This document shows, in pieces, positions 1,848 through 10,064 of a DNA stretch of 64,000 nucleotides. The position numbers and the translations under genes are program-made. The notes under the pieces are model-generated. The model made no database searches. It saw only the letters and a program-made list of their open reading frames with translations, and was not told the origin of the DNA. Source of the stretch: an uncultured Spirochaetota bacterium (GTDB taxonomy: Bacteria > Spirochaetota > Spirochaetia > Treponematales > Rectinemataceae). The stretch spans positions 1-64,000 of the forward strand of contig CAIJMU010000126.1 in NCBI GenBank assembly GCA_903821875.1. The letters run 5' to 3'. Every line of letters starts with the position of its first letter. Position 1 is the first letter of the stretch.

Positions 1848-1978
1848 TTCTCTCCACAGCCTACCGCTAGCCTTCAAGCCAGCGGAACCAGAGCCCGCCT
1901 TCTTTTTTTTACTATTTCTATCCCCGTTTTGAATTCCCGCCGCCACCTCCTGGCGTACTAGTGGCAGGAGGCAGCACC

Positions 1979-2884
1979 ATGCAAATCGGCATCAAGCCCA
2001 CCGTTGATATCGTGTTTAAGAAGCTTTTTGGTTCCAATGACCACAAGGACCTGCCGCTTCACTTTCTCAACGAGCTTCTGCCGCTCGCTGGAAGGGAGCC
2101 GGTCTCGTCGCTCACTATCCTGAATCCTTACCTCATCGCCGACTTCGAGGGCGACAAGGAGGTGAGCCTTGATCTGCGGCTCGAAGAACCGGACAAGCGC
2201 GATATCCAAGTGGAAATGCAGGTCAGATCGCGCGGCGCCCTGGACAACCGCATGCTCACCACCTGGTCGAAGCTCTACACCAGCCAGATCGGACGGGGCG
2301 ACTCCTATGCGCTCCACCGACCAGCCATCTCCATCTGGATCATCGGAGAGGCGCACTTCGGTGACGGCTCCTGGCTCCATGTGTTCGAGGCGCACTGCCG
2401 CAGGACCGGCCACACCCTGTCGCCGAACTTCCTGATTCTCACTATTGAACTGGAGGTTTTTAGCAGCTTGAAGAAGGGGCCCCAGTGGGATAGTGTAAGC
2501 CCTGGATTGCGGAAATGGCTTACCCTTCTTGCCGAGGGTGAAACCCTCGATCCAGAGCATCTGCCCGAAACTATGGCAGACGCCGACGTGCGGGAGGCAC
2601 TACAAATCATGTCCACCTTCAAACTCCAGGACCGTGAACGCATCCTCTACGATAGCCGCCAGGACTACGAATGGACCCGCAACGCCGAGATGGCGGAGGC
2701 GATACAGGAAGGGATGAAGGAAGGGATGAAGGAAGGGATGAAGGAAGGCGAGAAAAAGGGCCGGGCAGATGGTGAGCGCGCCAAGGCCCTCTCCGATGCC
2801 CGGAACTTCAAGCGTCTTGGCGTTAGCACGGCAATCATCGCCGAAGCAACAGGCTTGCCCGAGACCGAGGTCGAGGAGCTGTAG
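1979..2884 (+). CDS. Rpn-family PD-(D/E)XK nuclease/transposase-like protein
   Basis: This complete 301-residue protein starts at the ATG at 1979; AGGAGG lies just upstream, so the GTG at 1961 is unlikely. The N-terminal IGIKPTVDIVFKKLFG and the following LPLHFLNELL are typical of Rpn proteins. The nuclease core is visible as SLDLRLEE (catalytic Asp) followed by the RDIQVEMQ strand (the E-x-Q variant of ExK). A tandem EGMK tract and a C-terminal helix-turn-helix-like segment follow. Family knowledge: Rpn proteins cut DNA and promote RecA-independent recombination in E. coli; activity in spirochaetes is not established. The gene is single, with a possible hairpin terminator after it. Confidence 0.85.
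   Translation: MQIGIKPTVDIVFKKLFGSNDHKDLPLHFLNELLPLAGREPVSSLTILNPYLIADFEGDKEVSLDLRLEEPDKRDIQVEMQVRSRGALDNRMLTTWSKLYTSQIGRGDSYALHRPAISIWIIGEAHFGDGSWLHVFEAHCRRTGHTLSPNFLILTIELEVFSSLKKGPQWDSVSPGLRKWLTLLAEGETLDPEHLPETMADADVREALQIMSTFKLQDRERILYDSRQDYEWTRNAEMAEAIQEGMKEGMKEGMKEGEKKGRADGERAKALSDARNFKRLGVSTAIIAEATGLPETEVEEL
2501..2884 (+). repeat. Segment duplicated at 1-348
   Basis: Bases 2501-2620 are identical to 1-120. About nine differences follow in the next 80 bases, then the EGMK/EGLK tract of unequal length, then an identical block of about 70 bases, then a diverged 3' end. The mix of identical and diverged blocks looks like partial gene conversion between two paralogous Rpn genes. Confidence 0.85.
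2708..2743 (+). repeat. 12-bp tandem repeat inside the Rpn gene
   Basis: Three perfect units of GAAGGGATGAAG encode EGMK three times. A further segment (EKKGRADG) after the tract is missing from the paralogue at 1-348. Confidence 0.85.
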
Positions 2885-4320: not shown

Positions 4321-5757
4321 TTAGAAGCTGCCGCTGCCTAGGTCGAGGCTGAGGGAAAAGGCAGCGCTGGGCTTGCCGCCGCCCATCAAGGTGTATTCGC
4401 TGCCCTCAGGGCCAAAGCTGAGGGTTGCCCCGGTTTTAGCCTTCATGTAATCGAAGAACTTCCAGGTCAGGCTCGGCGCAACGATGAAGGACCTGTCGGA
4501 GATGTTGCCGACTCCGTAGACCATGAAGGAGAGCTGGTCGACGAAGAGCTCTGAAAAGGATATCGAAGCCGCAGCATAGTGGGTTCCGAACTTGGCGCGG
4601 TCGATTTCGGACTGGTGCATGTAGTAGTAGGCGTAGGCTTCCTTTGCGGTGACCCCGCTCTGGCCTTCGCCGTTGTAGAAATAGGCAGCCGAGGCGGTCA
4701 GGTTCCAGTCCGTGTTCGAGTAAAAACCTCCGGCAGTGCCCGAGAACCAGAGCTGGTCGGCCTTCTGCGCAGCCAGGATGGGACTCGAGAGGAAGTATCG
4801 CTCGCTGCCCCACTTGGCGACAGCCTCGCCAAAGAAGTTGAAGGTCCCATTGCCGGTCGTGCCCATGAGGATGGCGCGGGGATGGTCGCTGTACGCGTAG
4901 TAACCGGCGGCAGCCAGTTCCGTGTTGCCGAAGTTACCCTCTGCCTTGGCTGCGACGCGCAGGTCATTGATGTCCAGGGTCGTAGTGTCGGGCACTCCGG
5001 CGTAGAAATAGGCGTTTGCCATCGAAAGGGGGAGGGGATACTGGGCCTTGAAGGCGATGGGGCCCTCACGCTCTGCACCCGTGTTCGAGAAGTCCACGAC
5101 GTTGAGGGCAAAGATGTCGTTGGCCGGCTGGAAGAAGGACTGGGACACTCCCCAGGCCAGGGACTGCTTGCCAAAACTCATGAAGACGACATCTTTCCAG
5201 CTGAACTTGGAGTAGAGCGACCAGACCTTGATGCTGGGCAGGGTCAGGCTTGTCGAGGTCGTCTTGACTGAGGCTGGGTAGGGTAGGCTGGTGTAGGGGT
5301 TGGTGCCCGCGGCTACGTAGGTCGCGCCGGTGAGTACCGAACTGCTCGAGGCGAAGGGGTTGGAGGCCCGGAACTCCATATTGACGCCGAAGTCCTCGGA
5401 GGGCTTGGCGGTGATCTTGATGGAGTCCGACATGCTGGGAGTGAGCCTCCGCGAGTCGGGCTTGAGGGGATCGATGCCGGCATTCCAGGGGTCCAGCCAG
5501 GTGCCTGTCAGGCCGAGGCTGCCGCTCGCCGAGCCTCCGACCTTGACCATGTCGTACTTCAGGAAGTCTTTCTGCGGGGTTGCCGCAGCGTCGGACTTTG
5601 TTTCCGTCACCGTTTCGGCGCCGAAGAGGTCCTCCTCTGAGTCCGCCCCGGTGTCGGCAGACACGCCGCTGTCCTGGGCCGCAAGCGGGAAGGCAAGCGC
5701 TGCGGCGAGGGCGATCACGGCAAGGAAGGCCCTGCTTCCCCCTGGCAATGGCCGCAT
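4321..5757 (-). CDS. Outer-membrane beta-barrel protein of the exporter operon
   Basis: A 478-residue protein with a clear signal peptide (residues 1-27, cleavage near PLAA-QDSG). An acidic segment with EEDLFGAET (coded at 5611-5631) follows, then about 400 residues rich in alternating hydrophobic and polar strands, aromatic residues and Gly/Ser, as in outer-membrane barrels. I do not recognise the family beyond that. It is the last gene of a five-gene operon with a LolCDE-like transporter and a LolA-like protein, and its start nearly touches the preceding stop. This suggests it is either the outer-membrane end of the export route or its main cargo. The motif LFGAET is shared with the second permease of the same operon. 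Confidence 0.7.
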   Translation of the reverse strand: MRPLPGGSRAFLAVIALAAALAFPLAAQDSGVSADTGADSEEDLFGAETVTETKSDAAATPQKDFLKYDMVKVGGSASGSLGLTGTWLDPWNAGIDPLKPDSRRLTPSMSDSIKITAKPSEDFGVNMEFRASNPFASSSSVLTGATYVAAGTNPYTSLPYPASVKTTSTSLTLPSIKVWSLYSKFSWKDVVFMSFGKQSLAWGVSQSFFQPANDIFALNVVDFSNTGAEREGPIAFKAQYPLPLSMANAYFYAGVPDTTTLDINDLRVAAKAEGNFGNTELAAAGYYAYSDHPRAILMGTTGNGTFNFFGEAVAKWGSERYFLSSPILAAQKADQLWFSGTAGGFYSNTDWNLTASAAYFYNGEGQSGVTAKEAYAYYYMHQSEIDRAKFGTHYAAASISFSELFVDQLSFMVYGVGNISDRSFIVAPSLTWKFFDYMKAKTGATLSFGPEGSEYTLMGGGKPSAAFSLSLDLGSGSF

Positions 5758-5758
5758 C

Positions 5759-6520
5759 TTACTGCGCCCTCTCGAGGAAGGCCTTGGTGAAGACCGAGTC
5801 GGGGAGCTTGGACACGGTGACGTCCGAGATCGTGAGTACGCTCTGGTTGCCCTTGTTGAGTTCGTCGACCATCTTGATTTTCGCCGGTATCTGGCGGTCC
5901 CCGGCCTTGATGTAGGTCGGCAGGAAGAGCGTGGTGCGCATGAGGCGGTCGGACACGGAGAAGTCTTCTTCCTTTAGTGGCACGGCCTTGTCCTTGCGGA
6001 CGGTGAGCCGGATCTTCTGGTAGGAAACCTCGGTGTTCTTGGCGGCAAGGGTGAAGATCCACACCTCGTAGCTACCGAGCTTGCCCTCCTCGGTCTTCTG
6101 GATGTCGTAATCCGCAGCGAAGGTGTAGCGCTTGAAGTCGGAGCTCTTCGCGTCGGTGTTGTTGATGTTCTCCTTCATCGTCGAATGGGAGAAGTTGCCC
6201 GACTCCGGGTCGTAGAACCACACGTTGTCGTCGATCTTGAGGTAACCCTGGCCCTTCTGCTTTTCCGGCTTCTGGAGCAGTATGAGGATCTGGTTCTGGA
6301 GGTCGCGGCGGAATATCTTGATCTGGGTGGTGGCCGGATTCTCGCCGGGCTTTTCCGACACGATGTTGTAGACCGCGCTGAAGTCCGAGGAGCCGAAGTC
6401 CTGCATCTTGTCGATCTGGGCAAGGATGGCCTTGAAGTCAGTCGTCGCCGCCCCCGCCGGGGCTGCCAGGAGGAAGGCGGCGGCCAGGGCGGCTGCGAAG
6501 GGACCAAGTAGTCGTTTCAT
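5759..6520 (-). CDS. LolA-like periplasmic (outer-membrane lipoprotein-sorting) protein
   Basis: About 253 residues with a signal peptide (MKRLLGPFAAALAAAFLLAAPAGA). The start is taken as the second ATG (6518-6520) because GGAG lies six bases before it; the first ATG (6524-6526) abuts the GGAG. The mature part has the features of the LolA/LolB-like fold family found next to LolCDE-type exporters: repeated short strands, QNQILILLQKPEKQKGQGYLK, a DDNVWFYDP turn and a late KIKMVDELNKG strand. Such proteins carry lipidated or hydrophobic cargo across the periplasm. The gene sits 13 bases after the permease gene in the same operon. The cargo is unknown. Confidence 0.75.
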   Translation of the reverse strand: MKRLLGPFAAALAAAFLLAAPAGAATTDFKAILAQIDKMQDFGSSDFSAVYNIVSEKPGENPATTQIKIFRRDLQNQILILLQKPEKQKGQGYLKIDDNVWFYDPESGNFSHSTMKENINNTDAKSSDFKRYTFAADYDIQKTEEGKLGSYEVWIFTLAAKNTEVSYQKIRLTVRKDKAVPLKEEDFSVSDRLMRTTLFLPTYIKAGDRQIPAKIKMVDELNKGNQSVLTISDVTVSKLPDSVFTKAFLERAQ

Positions 6521-6533
6521 CTGCATCTCCGTT

Positions 6534-7844
6534 TCACTTCACCGTGCGCAGGGCGACGGCGGGGTCGAGGCGGGCGGCGTTCCGCGAGGGGAAGAAGGCC
6601 GCGAATTCGGTCAGGGCGGCGACGATGAGGACGTTCAGGAGCATCCTCGCCGCGTCGACCTTGAAGGTCATGTGACCGTTCTTGAGAATTATGAAGACCG
6701 GGCTGTTCATGCTGAAGCTGATGCCGCCGATGGCCGCCATCACGATGAAGGCCAGCACGAGTCCGAAGACCGCGCCTCCGAGGGCAAGGAATCCGGCCTC
6801 GAAGAGGAAGAGGTTCCTGACCTCGCCACGCTGCATGCCGATCGACCGCATTGTGCCGATCTCCCGGATGCGCTCGTAGAGGATGATGCGGAAGGTGTTG
6901 GTGATGCCGACCATTATGATCACGAACAGCACCAGGAGGATGATGAGGCTCGCGGTGTCGAGGGCGTCCGCGATCTGCTTTACCTGGGCCAGCATGTCGT
7001 TCAGGGTGAAGACGCGGTACTTGATGCCCGTCCAGGTCTCGGTCTTGCCCTGGTTCATGAAGGAACGGATGAAGTTCTGGTCATTCTTGGCTGCGTCACG
7101 GTCGAAGACGGGGGCGACGGCCTTCACCTTCTCGTAGAGGGCCTTGCCGTAGGCGTCGGTGCCCTTCAGCGAGGGGAGGTAGATGCCCAGGAGCTGGTAG
7201 TCCTCCGGCCCGAGGGCCAGGAGTTCGTTCATGTAGGTCTTGTTTGCGTAGCCCGACATGGAGCCGAAGATGCCCGCGTCGACGGTGATGCCCGCGATGG
7301 AGAACTCGCCGACGTTCTGCTGCCCGGTGAGGGTGCGGAGCTGCACCAGGACCCGGTCGCCGGGCTGTACGTTGAGCCGCTTGGCTATGGGCTCGGAGAT
7401 GATGATGCCGTCCCGCTGCTTCATGCCCTCGAGTCCGCCCTTGATGAACATCAGGCGCTCGGGAAGGAAGGTCTCCTTGGAGAAATCGACACCGTCTACC
7501 TTGAGCTGGGCGTTGTGTCCGGCAAAGATCAGGCTTGCCTGGGCTGAGGAGCGCTTGGAGATGTACTTGGACGGGATGTTCGCGTCCTTGACTGCCTGCA
7601 TCAGGAGGGCGTCATCGCGGATGATGTCCGACTCCTTGCCCGAGGCCGATTTCTCGACGCCCTGGATGAAGACGTGCCCTGCGGCCAGGTTGGCGAAGTT
7701 CTCGCTGATGTTGTCGACAAAGGCCCCCGCGAAGCCGTTGATGACCGTGACGATCATGATGCCGAAGGCAATGGCGCTCCCGAGGAGGAAGGTCCGTTTC
7801 TTCTGCCGGGCGAGGTTGCGCAGGGCCAGTTTGATGATTTCCAT
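6534..7844 (-). CDS. FtsX/LolC-type ABC exporter permease 1
   Basis: 436 residues with the MacB/LolCE plan: a short cytoplasmic N-terminus (LALRNLARQKKRTFLLG), one membrane segment near residues 20-42, a periplasmic domain of about 240 residues, then three membrane segments in the C-terminal 150 residues. The FtsX-type coupling segment is REIGTMRSIGMQRGEVRNLF, which contacts the ATPase. It pairs with the second permease (7848-9290) and the ATPase (9294-10064) as an asymmetric LolCDE-like complex that extracts substrate from the inner membrane. It begins three bases after the upstream permease stop. Confidence 0.85.
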   Translation of the reverse strand: MEIIKLALRNLARQKKRTFLLGSAIAFGIMIVTVINGFAGAFVDNISENFANLAAGHVFIQGVEKSASGKESDIIRDDALLMQAVKDANIPSKYISKRSSAQASLIFAGHNAQLKVDGVDFSKETFLPERLMFIKGGLEGMKQRDGIIISEPIAKRLNVQPGDRVLVQLRTLTGQQNVGEFSIAGITVDAGIFGSMSGYANKTYMNELLALGPEDYQLLGIYLPSLKGTDAYGKALYEKVKAVAPVFDRDAAKNDQNFIRSFMNQGKTETWTGIKYRVFTLNDMLAQVKQIADALDTASLIILLVLFVIIMVGITNTFRIILYERIREIGTMRSIGMQRGEVRNLFLFEAGFLALGGAVFGLVLAFIVMAAIGGISFSMNSPVFIILKNGHMTFKVDAARMLLNVLIVAALTEFAAFFPSRNAARLDPAVALRTVK

Positions 7845-7847
7845 TTC

Positions 7848-9290
7848 CTACTCCACCTGCATCGCGCGGACGGGCTCGACCTTGAGGGCGAGCGAAACGG
7901 GATAGAGATGCGCGATGACCGCAACCATCCCGACGAGGACCATGCTCCAGGCCACCGAGCCCGGGTTGACCGACAGGTTGAGGACCTTGCCGGCGAAGAG
8001 GATCTCCAGGAAGGGGTTGCCCGCTTCGATGTGCATTGCCCCGAGTATCGCTATGATCGCGAAGGAGAGGGCCATGCCGATGAGTCCGAAGACACCTGCG
8101 ATCGTGAGGGTCTCGACGAGGAACATCTTCCGGACATAGCCCTTCTGTGCGCCGAGGGCGCGCATCGTGCCTATCTCCCCGGTCCGTTCTATGACCGAGA
8201 TCACGAGGGTGTTCATCATTATGATGACCGCGACTATCGCAACTATGATGATCGCGATGTTGAAGACCACGCGGAGCACGTCGATGCTCTGCGCGAAGGG
8301 ACCGGCGGCGGCTTTCCAGTCGCCCGCCTGGGCTTCTATCCCCTCGGATGCGAACCAGGCGTTGAGCGTGGCTATCGTCCTGGGTGCCACGGAGGGGTTG
8401 GTCACCCGCGCGAGCATGAAGTTCCAGGCCCCGGTGTCGATTTCGATAGCCTTGCGGGGGGGCGGGGCAGCACTGGGAGTGGCTTCCGGCTTCTGCTCGG
8501 ACACCAGCGTCTCAGCTCCGAAGAGCTCGTCCTCGTTGGTGGTAGCGAGGAGCTTTTTCTGATCTTCGCTGACGGGTGTCTCCTCGTCGTTTCCGAGGGT
8601 CATGCCGTTGAGGATGCGCAGTGTGTTGACGTCCACGTAGGAGATGAAGCTCGTCGCCTCGCTGTCGCTCTTGAAGCGGATGATGCCAGTGAGGGGCACG
8701 GAGCGGATCTTGAATCCCGCCTTGCCCATGCCCGTGAGGAGGAGGGTCTCCCCGAGTTTCGGCGACCAACCCGCGTCCTTTTGCATCCGGTCGAGCATGG
8801 CACGCGACATGACAAGGCCGTCCTCTCCCGGCTTGAGGAGGGAACCCTCGAGGACGACGGCATTGTCGAAAAGTTTGTAATAGGTCGAAGGATCGATTCC
8901 GAAGAGGAGGGCGAAGCCCTGGTCGCTCTCGTTGGACTTGTGGGCGAGCAGCGAGAAGCCCGTGACCTGGCTCGTGACGCCGGTGACCCCCGGCAGGGAG
9001 GCGAGCTTGGCGGCGATCCTGTCGAAGTCGGGAATGTTGGGGGTCGCGTCACGCTGGCCCATCGACTGGACGCCGAAGAGGCTCACCGGGTTCTTGTTCT
9101 TCGCGGCGACGAAGACGTCGCCGGTGTAGTTTCCGATGAAGGTATCCTTGACTCCCTTGGCGGCGGTGTCCATGAAGGAATTACCGACTATGAGTATTAT
9201 TACCCCGAGCGCCAGGAGCACTCCTATTATCAGGCTCTTGGCCTTGTGCTCGAGGAGGTTGCGGAAGGCTATCCGCAGCATTACGGGCAT
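7848..9290 (-). CDS. FtsX/LolE-type ABC exporter permease 2 with LFGAET insert
   Basis: 480 residues with the same topology as permease 1: an N-terminal membrane segment after RNLLEHKAKS, a large periplasmic domain and three C-terminal membrane segments, with the coupling segment GEIGTMRALGAQKG. The ATG has AAGGAG seven bases upstream. The periplasmic domain is about 40 residues longer than in permease 1 because of an acidic, proline-rich insert that includes NEDELFGAET (LFGAET region coded at 8508-8528). Nearly the same motif occurs in the mature N-terminus of the barrel protein from this operon, which suggests a shared binding site or linear tag. Function as a LolCDE-like permease is inferred from family and context. 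Confidence 0.85.
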   Translation of the reverse strand: MPVMLRIAFRNLLEHKAKSLIIGVLLALGVIILIVGNSFMDTAAKGVKDTFIGNYTGDVFVAAKNKNPVSLFGVQSMGQRDATPNIPDFDRIAAKLASLPGVTGVTSQVTGFSLLAHKSNESDQGFALLFGIDPSTYYKLFDNAVVLEGSLLKPGEDGLVMSRAMLDRMQKDAGWSPKLGETLLLTGMGKAGFKIRSVPLTGIIRFKSDSEATSFISYVDVNTLRILNGMTLGNDEETPVSEDQKKLLATTNEDELFGAETLVSEQKPEATPSAAPPPRKAIEIDTGAWNFMLARVTNPSVAPRTIATLNAWFASEGIEAQAGDWKAAAGPFAQSIDVLRVVFNIAIIIVAIVAVIIMMNTLVISVIERTGEIGTMRALGAQKGYVRKMFLVETLTIAGVFGLIGMALSFAIIAILGAMHIEAGNPFLEILFAGKVLNLSVNPGSVAWSMVLVGMVAVIAHLYPVSLALKVEPVRAMQVE

Positions 9291-9293
9291 GGA

Positions 9294-10064
9294 TCAGCTC
9301 CTTGCCGACTGGACGGGCGAATTCTCGATGACGGATTCACCTGCCAGGTCCGCGCAGAGGGCGGCGGCGTCCGTGCCGTTCCGGACGTTCTCGATGATCA
9401 GGCCGTCGCGGAGCCGGATGATGTGGTCGGCGAGTCCCACGATCTTGGCGTCGTGGGTCGAGAAGATGAAGGTTGTCTGCATCTCGCGGTTGATCTTCTT
9501 CATGAGTTCGAGGATCTGCTCCCCGGTGTGCGAGTCGAGGTTGGCCGTCGGCTCGTCGGCAAGCACGATCTCGGGCTTTGTGACCAGGGCACGGGCGATG
9601 GCGACGCGCTGTCGCTGGCCACCCGAGAGCTCGTTGGATTTATGCTTGCTCCACTGGGAAAGCCCGACCTCCTCGATGAGGTAGTCGATCCACTGCTCCC
9701 TTTCCTTCTTGGGCACGCGCTCGCGGCCGAGGAGGAGGGGGAACTCGATGTTCTCGCGCACGTTGAGCACGGGGATGAGGTTGAAGGACTGGAAGATGAA
9801 GCCCAGGGTTTCGTGACGGAGCGTGGTCAGGGCCGCGTCCTTGAGGTCCTTCGTGGGCGTACCTGCAATGGAAACCGTACCCTTGGTGGGTCTGTCGACG
9901 CAGCCGATCATGTTGAGGATCGTCGTCTTGCCCGAGCCCGAGGGACCCGCTATGGATACGAAATCACCCTTCTCGATACAGAACGAGACGCCCTTGACTG
10001 CTTCCACCTCGACCTTGCCGAGGGGGTAGACCTTCCTGACATCCTGCAACTCCACTATGGTCAT
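9294..10064 (-). CDS. LolD/MacB-type ABC transporter ATPase
   Basis: 256 residues with a complete nucleotide-binding domain: Walker A GPSGSGKTT (residues 40-48), Q-loop FQSFN, signature LSGGQ (146-150), Walker B EIVLADEP (Asp170, Glu171) and the switch His in STHD. It has the LolD/MacB subfamily look and a 30-residue C-terminal tail not needed for catalysis. It is the first gene of the exporter operon (AAGGAG five bases before the ATG); the permease genes follow with gaps of only three bases. It should power a cargo-extraction pump with the two permeases. Confidence 0.93.
   Translation of the reverse strand: MTIVELQDVRKVYPLGKVEVEAVKGVSFCIEKGDFVSIAGPSGSGKTTILNMIGCVDRPTKGTVSIAGTPTKDLKDAALTTLRHETLGFIFQSFNLIPVLNVRENIEFPLLLGRERVPKKEREQWIDYLIEEVGLSQWSKHKSNELSGGQRQRVAIARALVTKPEIVLADEPTANLDSHTGEQILELMKKINREMQTTFIFSTHDAKIVGLADHIIRLRDGLIIENVRNGTDAAALCADLAGESVIENSPVQSARS

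Follow-up and report, generated by a model that had tools for sequence, protein, structure and literature searches.

Why do an inner-membrane permease and an outer-membrane barrel protein of one operon carry the same short acidic peptide? The question is raised by a stretch of 64,000 nucleotides (the window) of contig CAIJMU010000126.1 from an uncultured bacterium of the Rectinemataceae (Spirochaetota; assembly GCA_903821875.1). The minus strand of the window holds a five-gene cassette encoding an ATP-binding cassette (ABC) ATPase, permease 2, permease 1, a LolA-like carrier, and a predicted outer-membrane barrel. An earlier note on this DNA had pointed to an LFGAE-type peptide common to permease 2 and the barrel. 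Both copies are present on the minus strand, within a few codons of the positions given there, and each is followed by a stretch rich in Glu, Lys, Ala, Thr, and Pro, as had been described.

The shared peptide and its conservation

The copy in permease 2 is NEDELFGAETLV, with Phe 257, in the context TNEDELFGAETLVSEQKPEATPSAAPPPRK; the copy in the barrel is EEDLFGAETVTE, with Phe 45, located directly after the signal peptide in the context ADSEEDLFGAETVTETKSDAAATPQK. The pattern GANNNNNNNYTNTTYGGNGCNGAR has two matches in the whole genome of 4,675,508 bases, exactly these sites, and its reversed form has none. A looser pattern, GANYTNTTYGGNGSNGAR, yields five genome matches (three for the reversed control), and apart from these two none lies in frame in a plausible gene. 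At three of the five shared LFGAE positions the copies have synonymous codons that differ; thus, the pair is not a recent DNA copy.

Two sets of loci were compared, one of operons and one of 80 named loci. They overlap in genomes (e.g., L154 and G008:C5, L158 and G014:C45) and, accordingly, are not independent samples. In both proteins the core of the motif is [DE]-x-[LIVMF]-F, usually within DDLFG, and the next residue is often G, S, D, or N. Homologues of permease 2 occur in all 58 genomes searched, and those of the barrel in 45 of the 58. The motif Phe is retained in 157 of 162 permease homologues and forms one of seven invariant columns among 41 permeases, while the F45 column is one of four invariant columns in 30 aligned barrels sharing 14-50% identity with the window protein. 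These alignments used 40 of 81 permease homologues (A1), 74 of 80 (A3), 29 of 57 complete barrels (A4), and 66 length-filtered LolA-like proteins (A2), each with the window protein added. The earlier note had considered that the motif might be absent from the orthologues of both genes or might occur at random in cytoplasmic proteins. It is retained by the orthologues of both genes and is seldom encoded elsewhere: of nine whole-genome matches in four genomes, two fall in other plausible genes, identified by eye as those of a response regulator and a glycoside-hydrolase-like protein.

Of the permease loops in the two sets, 65 of 82 and 67 of 78 have the strict form [DE].[LIVM]F[GSDNAE], where shuffling gives means of 3.2 and 7.5; for the barrel linkers the counts are 42 of 65 and 53 of 64, with means of 2.9 and 5.7 after shuffling. 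Pooled, this gives 132 of 160 loops and 95 of 129 linkers, whereas shuffled sequences average 10.7 and 8.6. Random 65-residue segments contain the strict form in 2.1% of cases in permease 1 (78 homologues), 0.4% in the LolA-like protein, 5.0% in the barrel body, and 6.9% in the rest of permease 2. A profile trained on the permeases of one locus set finds the motif in 56 of 64 barrels of the other set (shuffle p<0.05), and the reciprocal profile in 54 of 64 at the same threshold (110 of 128 for both directions together). Barrels L086 and L150, with a broken N-terminus, were excluded from the shuffle and random-segment, profile, and strict-motif counts; in the first of these they were removed by a length rule, L150 still being listed as no match. 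Permeases L179, which lacks the insert, and L233, cut by the contig end, were left out of the pooled strict tally. A relaxed pattern was discarded as evidence because shuffled segments match it in a quarter to half of cases.

Acidic linkers could in principle have come to resemble each other by chance or through their composition, or one copy could be a recent DNA duplicate of the other; the two segments are indeed acidic, and shuffled linkers often match relaxed patterns. Against this stand the two genome matches versus none for the reversed pattern, the excess of the strict form over shuffles in both proteins, the synonymous codon differences, and the conservation of the Phe in permeases and in all 30 aligned barrels. 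Such an origin is extremely improbable, and chance, composition, and recent duplication were ruled out on the genome pattern counts, shuffles, profile transfer, and codon differences. By these comparisons the shared motif is real, conserved, and under selection, and there is strong support for reading it as a selectively maintained short linear motif common to partner proteins.

Some lineages show variant forms. Several tandem DDLFG-like copies are present in the barrel linkers of the Treponema cassettes L214, L219, and L226. Several of the loci L143-L148, L221, and L227 group as a clade in which both copies are variant, the permease having an ENAIFGLA-type form and the barrel a DPFDxxAFD-type form; this clade is also changed at the otherwise conserved positions 96, 103, 106, 130, and 214 of the LolA-like protein. 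A Ton-box-like stretch ([DE][TIVS][VIL][VIT] or [DE][VIL][VIL]) forms a second half of the motif in 40 of 96 barrel tails, where shuffling yields a mean of 12.1, and in 39 of 148 permease tails (mean 15.6); being enriched but not general, it is kept as a side feature.

The tandem copies would suit a scenario in which homotypic acidic-aromatic contacts join the motifs to one another or to lipid, so that as cohesive repeats they bridge permease and barrel directly. In most cassettes each protein bears just one copy, whose strong acidity should repel a second, and we regard self-association as very unlikely.

Restriction to one type of cassette

As judged from sequence, the motif pair is a family trait of cassettes of the order ATPase, permease, permease, LolA-like protein, and barrel, found in Spirochaetota and in metagenome-assembled genomes (MAGs) under several other phylum labels. 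The earlier note had proposed a search of spirochaete proteomes; the motif extends beyond them. By our reading, non-spirochaete labels apply to 16 of the 80 loci (Clostridia, Bacillota, Natronincola, Limnochordia, Trueperaceae, Fibrobacteres, Omnitrophota, Proteobacteria, Myxococcales, and one "bacterium"), these being the depositors' MAG labels and no proof of taxonomy. At these loci the motif occurs in 15 of 15 visible permease loops and 12 of 12 visible barrel starts.

The genome of the window also contains a paralogous cassette (L070) with DLDSLF in the permease and FDDLF in the barrel. By eye, the motif is absent from its two other operons with a LolA-like gene, L071 with different ABC permeases and L072 with a resistance-nodulation-division (RND) pump. 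The strict form occurs in none of 11 barrels adjoining LolA-like genes of other operon types. The permease homologue L179, without the insert, has neither a LolA-like nor a barrel gene adjoining it. On this distribution the motif is specific to this cassette type.

A possible role in docking

In the AlphaFold2 model of permease 2, confidence (predicted local distance difference test, pLDDT) averaged per ten residues from residue 231 is 64, 75, 62, 49, 49, and 80, and residues 253-257 are modelled as a short helix within this low-confidence loop. The motif lies in a disordered acidic segment. The closest solved fold to the model is LolE (9rld_E; Z 26.4, root-mean-square deviation (rmsd) 5.8, 388 aligned residues), the fold having been tested on permease 2 alone.

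The acidic [DE]-x-L-F-G peptide is likely to be a docking motif. The earlier note had proposed a docking or sorting tag; docking stands as the best reading of a conserved shared motif, while a sorting tag fits poorly because the bearers reside in different membranes, the permease in the inner and the barrel in the outer. The occurrence of the same peptide on donor and acceptor, the position of the LolA-like gene between the two motif-bearing genes, and a carrier-specific basic signature suggest a common partner: in our judgement the odds are about even that each peptide docks the LolA-like carrier of the cassette. Permease 2 would bear one or a few motif copies on a flexible loop within the LolE-like periplasmic domain, and the barrel one or a few in a disordered linker after the signal peptide, both binding one site on the carrier. 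The ABC transporter would extract a hydrophobic, lipidic cargo, the permease copy would recruit the empty carrier, and the barrel copy would receive the loaded carrier at the outer membrane, standing in for LolB of E. coli. More tentatively, we suggest a trans-envelope system of several phyla in which one motif, on exporter and barrel, addresses a LolA-like carrier to both docking stations and replaces LolB. These proposals rest on sequence: a motif common to both proteins, conserved in each and confined to one cassette type, and a weak co-variation of the two copies.

A precedent for a permease loop that recruits a LolA-type carrier is provided by the Hook of E. coli LolC, which recruits LolA and is essential (PMC10865981). 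The alignment of permease 2 with 6f3z consists of ranges only and is too coarse to place an equivalent of the Hook. In the literature searched (the motif itself, LolA-like proteins with DUF1302, and periplasmic short linear motifs, with preprints outside the coverage), we found no description of this motif, no short linear motif common to inner- and outer-membrane partners of one transporter, and no equivalent carrier-recruiting element on an outer-membrane barrel.

The LolA-like protein is modelled with a mean pLDDT of 91.1 and resembles the solved folds 4z48 (Z 20.9, rmsd 3.2, 218 aligned residues), LolA3 (9tp6; 20.8, 3.3, 220), and 3buu (20.1, 3.8, 217). From motif cassettes, 130 LolA-like proteins of the main group and seven of the variant clade were compared with 13 from motif-less systems. 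Rare or absent in the latter are D48 and R74, present in 100% of the main group, as well as R73 (92%), D75 (91%), D106, F112, and K248 (92%). Position 197 is R in 97% of the main group and K in all 13 motif-less proteins. In the model, D48 starts the first strand and R74 ends the second, and so they are probably side by side at one rim. The residues D48, R73/R74, R197, and K248 are compatible with a basic docking site.

Also in favour of docking, motif pairs from the same operon are more alike than mismatched pairs (14.6 vs 8.5 in 101 operons, only non-identical ones whose barrel scored above 3 being used; partial Mantel r 0.14, p 0.001), a co-variation that is weak and possibly inflated by phylogeny, some of which is left in by label permutation.

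Several observations weigh against docking to the carrier. Five of 128 barrel linkers (L096, L138, L145, L146, and L213) miss even the relaxed pattern, four having DPF- or AFD-type forms and one DSYF, and the motif Phe is missing from the aligned column in L109, L192, and L222. The relaxed pattern also matches two of the 11 barrels from other operon types (L245 and L255, DPDAFF). Other LolA-like operons, of both ABC and RND kinds, function without the motif, and therefore a LolA-like carrier does not need it. Finally, the carrier signature may reflect family descent or cargo rather than docking.

The existence of motif-less LolA-like systems would also agree with another shared partner in the periplasm or membrane, for instance a chaperone associated with the β-barrel assembly machinery or a bridging protein encoded elsewhere, that binds both motifs and clamps permease and barrel together. 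Adaptor-binding motifs likewise lie in disordered segments such as that of the permease loop model. Clustering of neighbouring genes at the 80 loci reveals no further gene conserved beside the cassettes: besides the permeases, LolA-like, and barrel genes, the ATPase cluster recurs in 60 loci and the next cluster in seven. We consider such a partner unlikely.

The short helix predicted at the permease copy permits yet another explanation, in which the two copies work separately, each inside its own protein or complex. The barrel copy would then be a gate or plug, and the permease copy a regulatory loop that contacts permease 1 or competes for the cavity of the carrier. Leu and Phe could enter a hydrophobic cavity, as is described for the LolC Hook of E. 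coli. This scenario leaves unexplained both the same peptide in two unrelated proteins and the within-operon resemblance of the copies, and appears quite unlikely.

If docking of a common carrier is correct, it gives a concrete, testable answer to the question of cargo delivery by LolA-type carriers in bacteria that lack LolB. The conserved two-membrane peptide is a marker for finding such cassettes, and offers a way to predict which barrel pairs with which transporter.

Cassette genes and related systems

The features of the cassette are collected in Table 1.

Table 1. Cassette genes and motif copies, with positions in the window.
Feature	Position	Strand	Basis
ABC ATPase, LolD/MacB type	9294..10064	-	Pfam ABC_tran 2.9e-34; NCBIfam LolD 226.9 bits, under cut-off 307.75
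Permease 2, 480 residues, LolC/LolE fold, motif in long periplasmic loop	7848..9290	-	FtsX domain; AlphaFold2 mean pLDDT 89.5
Periplasmic insert of permease 2, about residues 231-285, acidic, low confidence, motif-bearing	8436..8600	-	pLDDT
Motif copy 1, NEDELFGAE, residues 252-260, F257, in permease 2	8511..8537	-	
Permease 1, 436 residues, FtsX/MacB type, without motif	6534..7844	-	Pfam FtsX and MacB_PCD
LolA-like periplasmic carrier, 255 residues, proposed common partner	5759..6526	-	Pfam LolA_like 8.7e-39
Predicted outer-membrane barrel protein, 478 residues, motif in N-terminal linker	4321..5757	-	Signal peptide, gene order
Motif copy 2, EEDLFGAE, residues 41-48, F45, in barrel	5614..5637	-	

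The LolA-like protein scores 133.5 bits against PF17131 (LolA_like), above the gathering cut-off of 30. The clustering of neighbouring genes at the 80 loci gives no hint of the cargo. The barrel of the window matches no Pfam family, and four of the 30 aligned homologues match DUF1302 (PF06980; best E 3.8e-6). At E 0.01, neither the window barrel nor its 29 homologues match the Omp85/BamA models, and the 30 barrels give no match to the plug and barrel profiles of TonB-dependent transporters; the barrel profile has no match among solved structures at E up to 1.

Unusual gene structures were observed at several loci. In L090 (1801-3891) and L158 (2700-4790), apparently one contig, permease 1 and the LolA-like protein form a single open frame of 696 residues that keeps an internal signal-peptide-like segment; either the two genes are fused or the assembly is wrong here. 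At the Trueperaceae locus L184 (10580-12679) the frame of the barrel spans about 700 residues, and one of the 30 scanned barrels, probably this one, matches short-chain dehydrogenases. In a Treponema cassette (L192, 4777-6288), a predicted exported barrel-like protein, recognized by eye, is encoded directly upstream of the ABC ATPase. Elsewhere in the window, positions 7-348 of the plus strand are a truncated near-copy of the C-terminal part of the open reading frame 1961-2884 (plus strand), with a variable KEGxKEG repeat in both.

Among known systems, MacAB-TolC differs in that MacB has the ATPase fused to the permease, whereas the ATPase and permease genes are separate here. Operons of the RND-LolA-like-DUF1302 type, such as that reportedly containing AmeD of Castellaniella and, in the genome of the window, C146, resemble the cassette in that a LolA-like gene adjoins a barrel gene, and the DUF1302 matches of four barrels point the same way. 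They differ in being energized by an RND pump, and the barrels beside such pumps in our data lack the strict motif. The Ton box of TonB-dependent transporters, a short conserved peptide at the N-terminus of the outer-membrane barrel, docks a partner in the periplasm. The barrel copy is likewise N-terminal, and some motif copies are followed by a D/E-T-V-V-like stretch, but the core here is acidic-L-F-G, and the same peptide is also found on an inner-membrane permease.

The closest published system found is the BBJ23-29 cluster of Borrelia, also a spirochaete, which combines a MacB-like ABC transporter, a LolA-like protein, and an outer-membrane barrel, with a proposed role in non-polar ligand export (PMC13078400). 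Its barrel is of the Omp85 type and its permease a proposed homodimer, in contrast to the cassette described here; the words "motif" and "disordered" are absent from the text of that paper. The barrel-like protein upstream of the ATPase in L192 may resemble the Omp85 protein of this cluster. Among 72,556 plasmid records, a tblastn search with permease 2 matched 29, none of them under the name Borrelia.

The cassette is similar to the E. coli LolCDE-LolA-LolB pathway in having an ATPase, two FtsX-type permeases, a LolC/LolE fold in permease 2, and a LolA-fold carrier; in E. coli, LolA is recruited by the LolC Hook, a loop of the permease (PMC10865981). LolB is not in the cassette, the gene after the LolA-like one encoding a barrel with a signal peptide, and the rest of the genome was not searched for it. 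The cassette proteins are far below the LolD, LolCE, and LolA equivalog cut-offs; the permeases score 63.7 and 71.9 bits against the LolC/LolE equivalog (cut-off 362.45), and the LolA-like protein 16.7 bits against that of LolA (cut-off 112). A further difference from the Lol pathway is that the proposed recruiter here is a conserved DDLFG peptide at both membranes.

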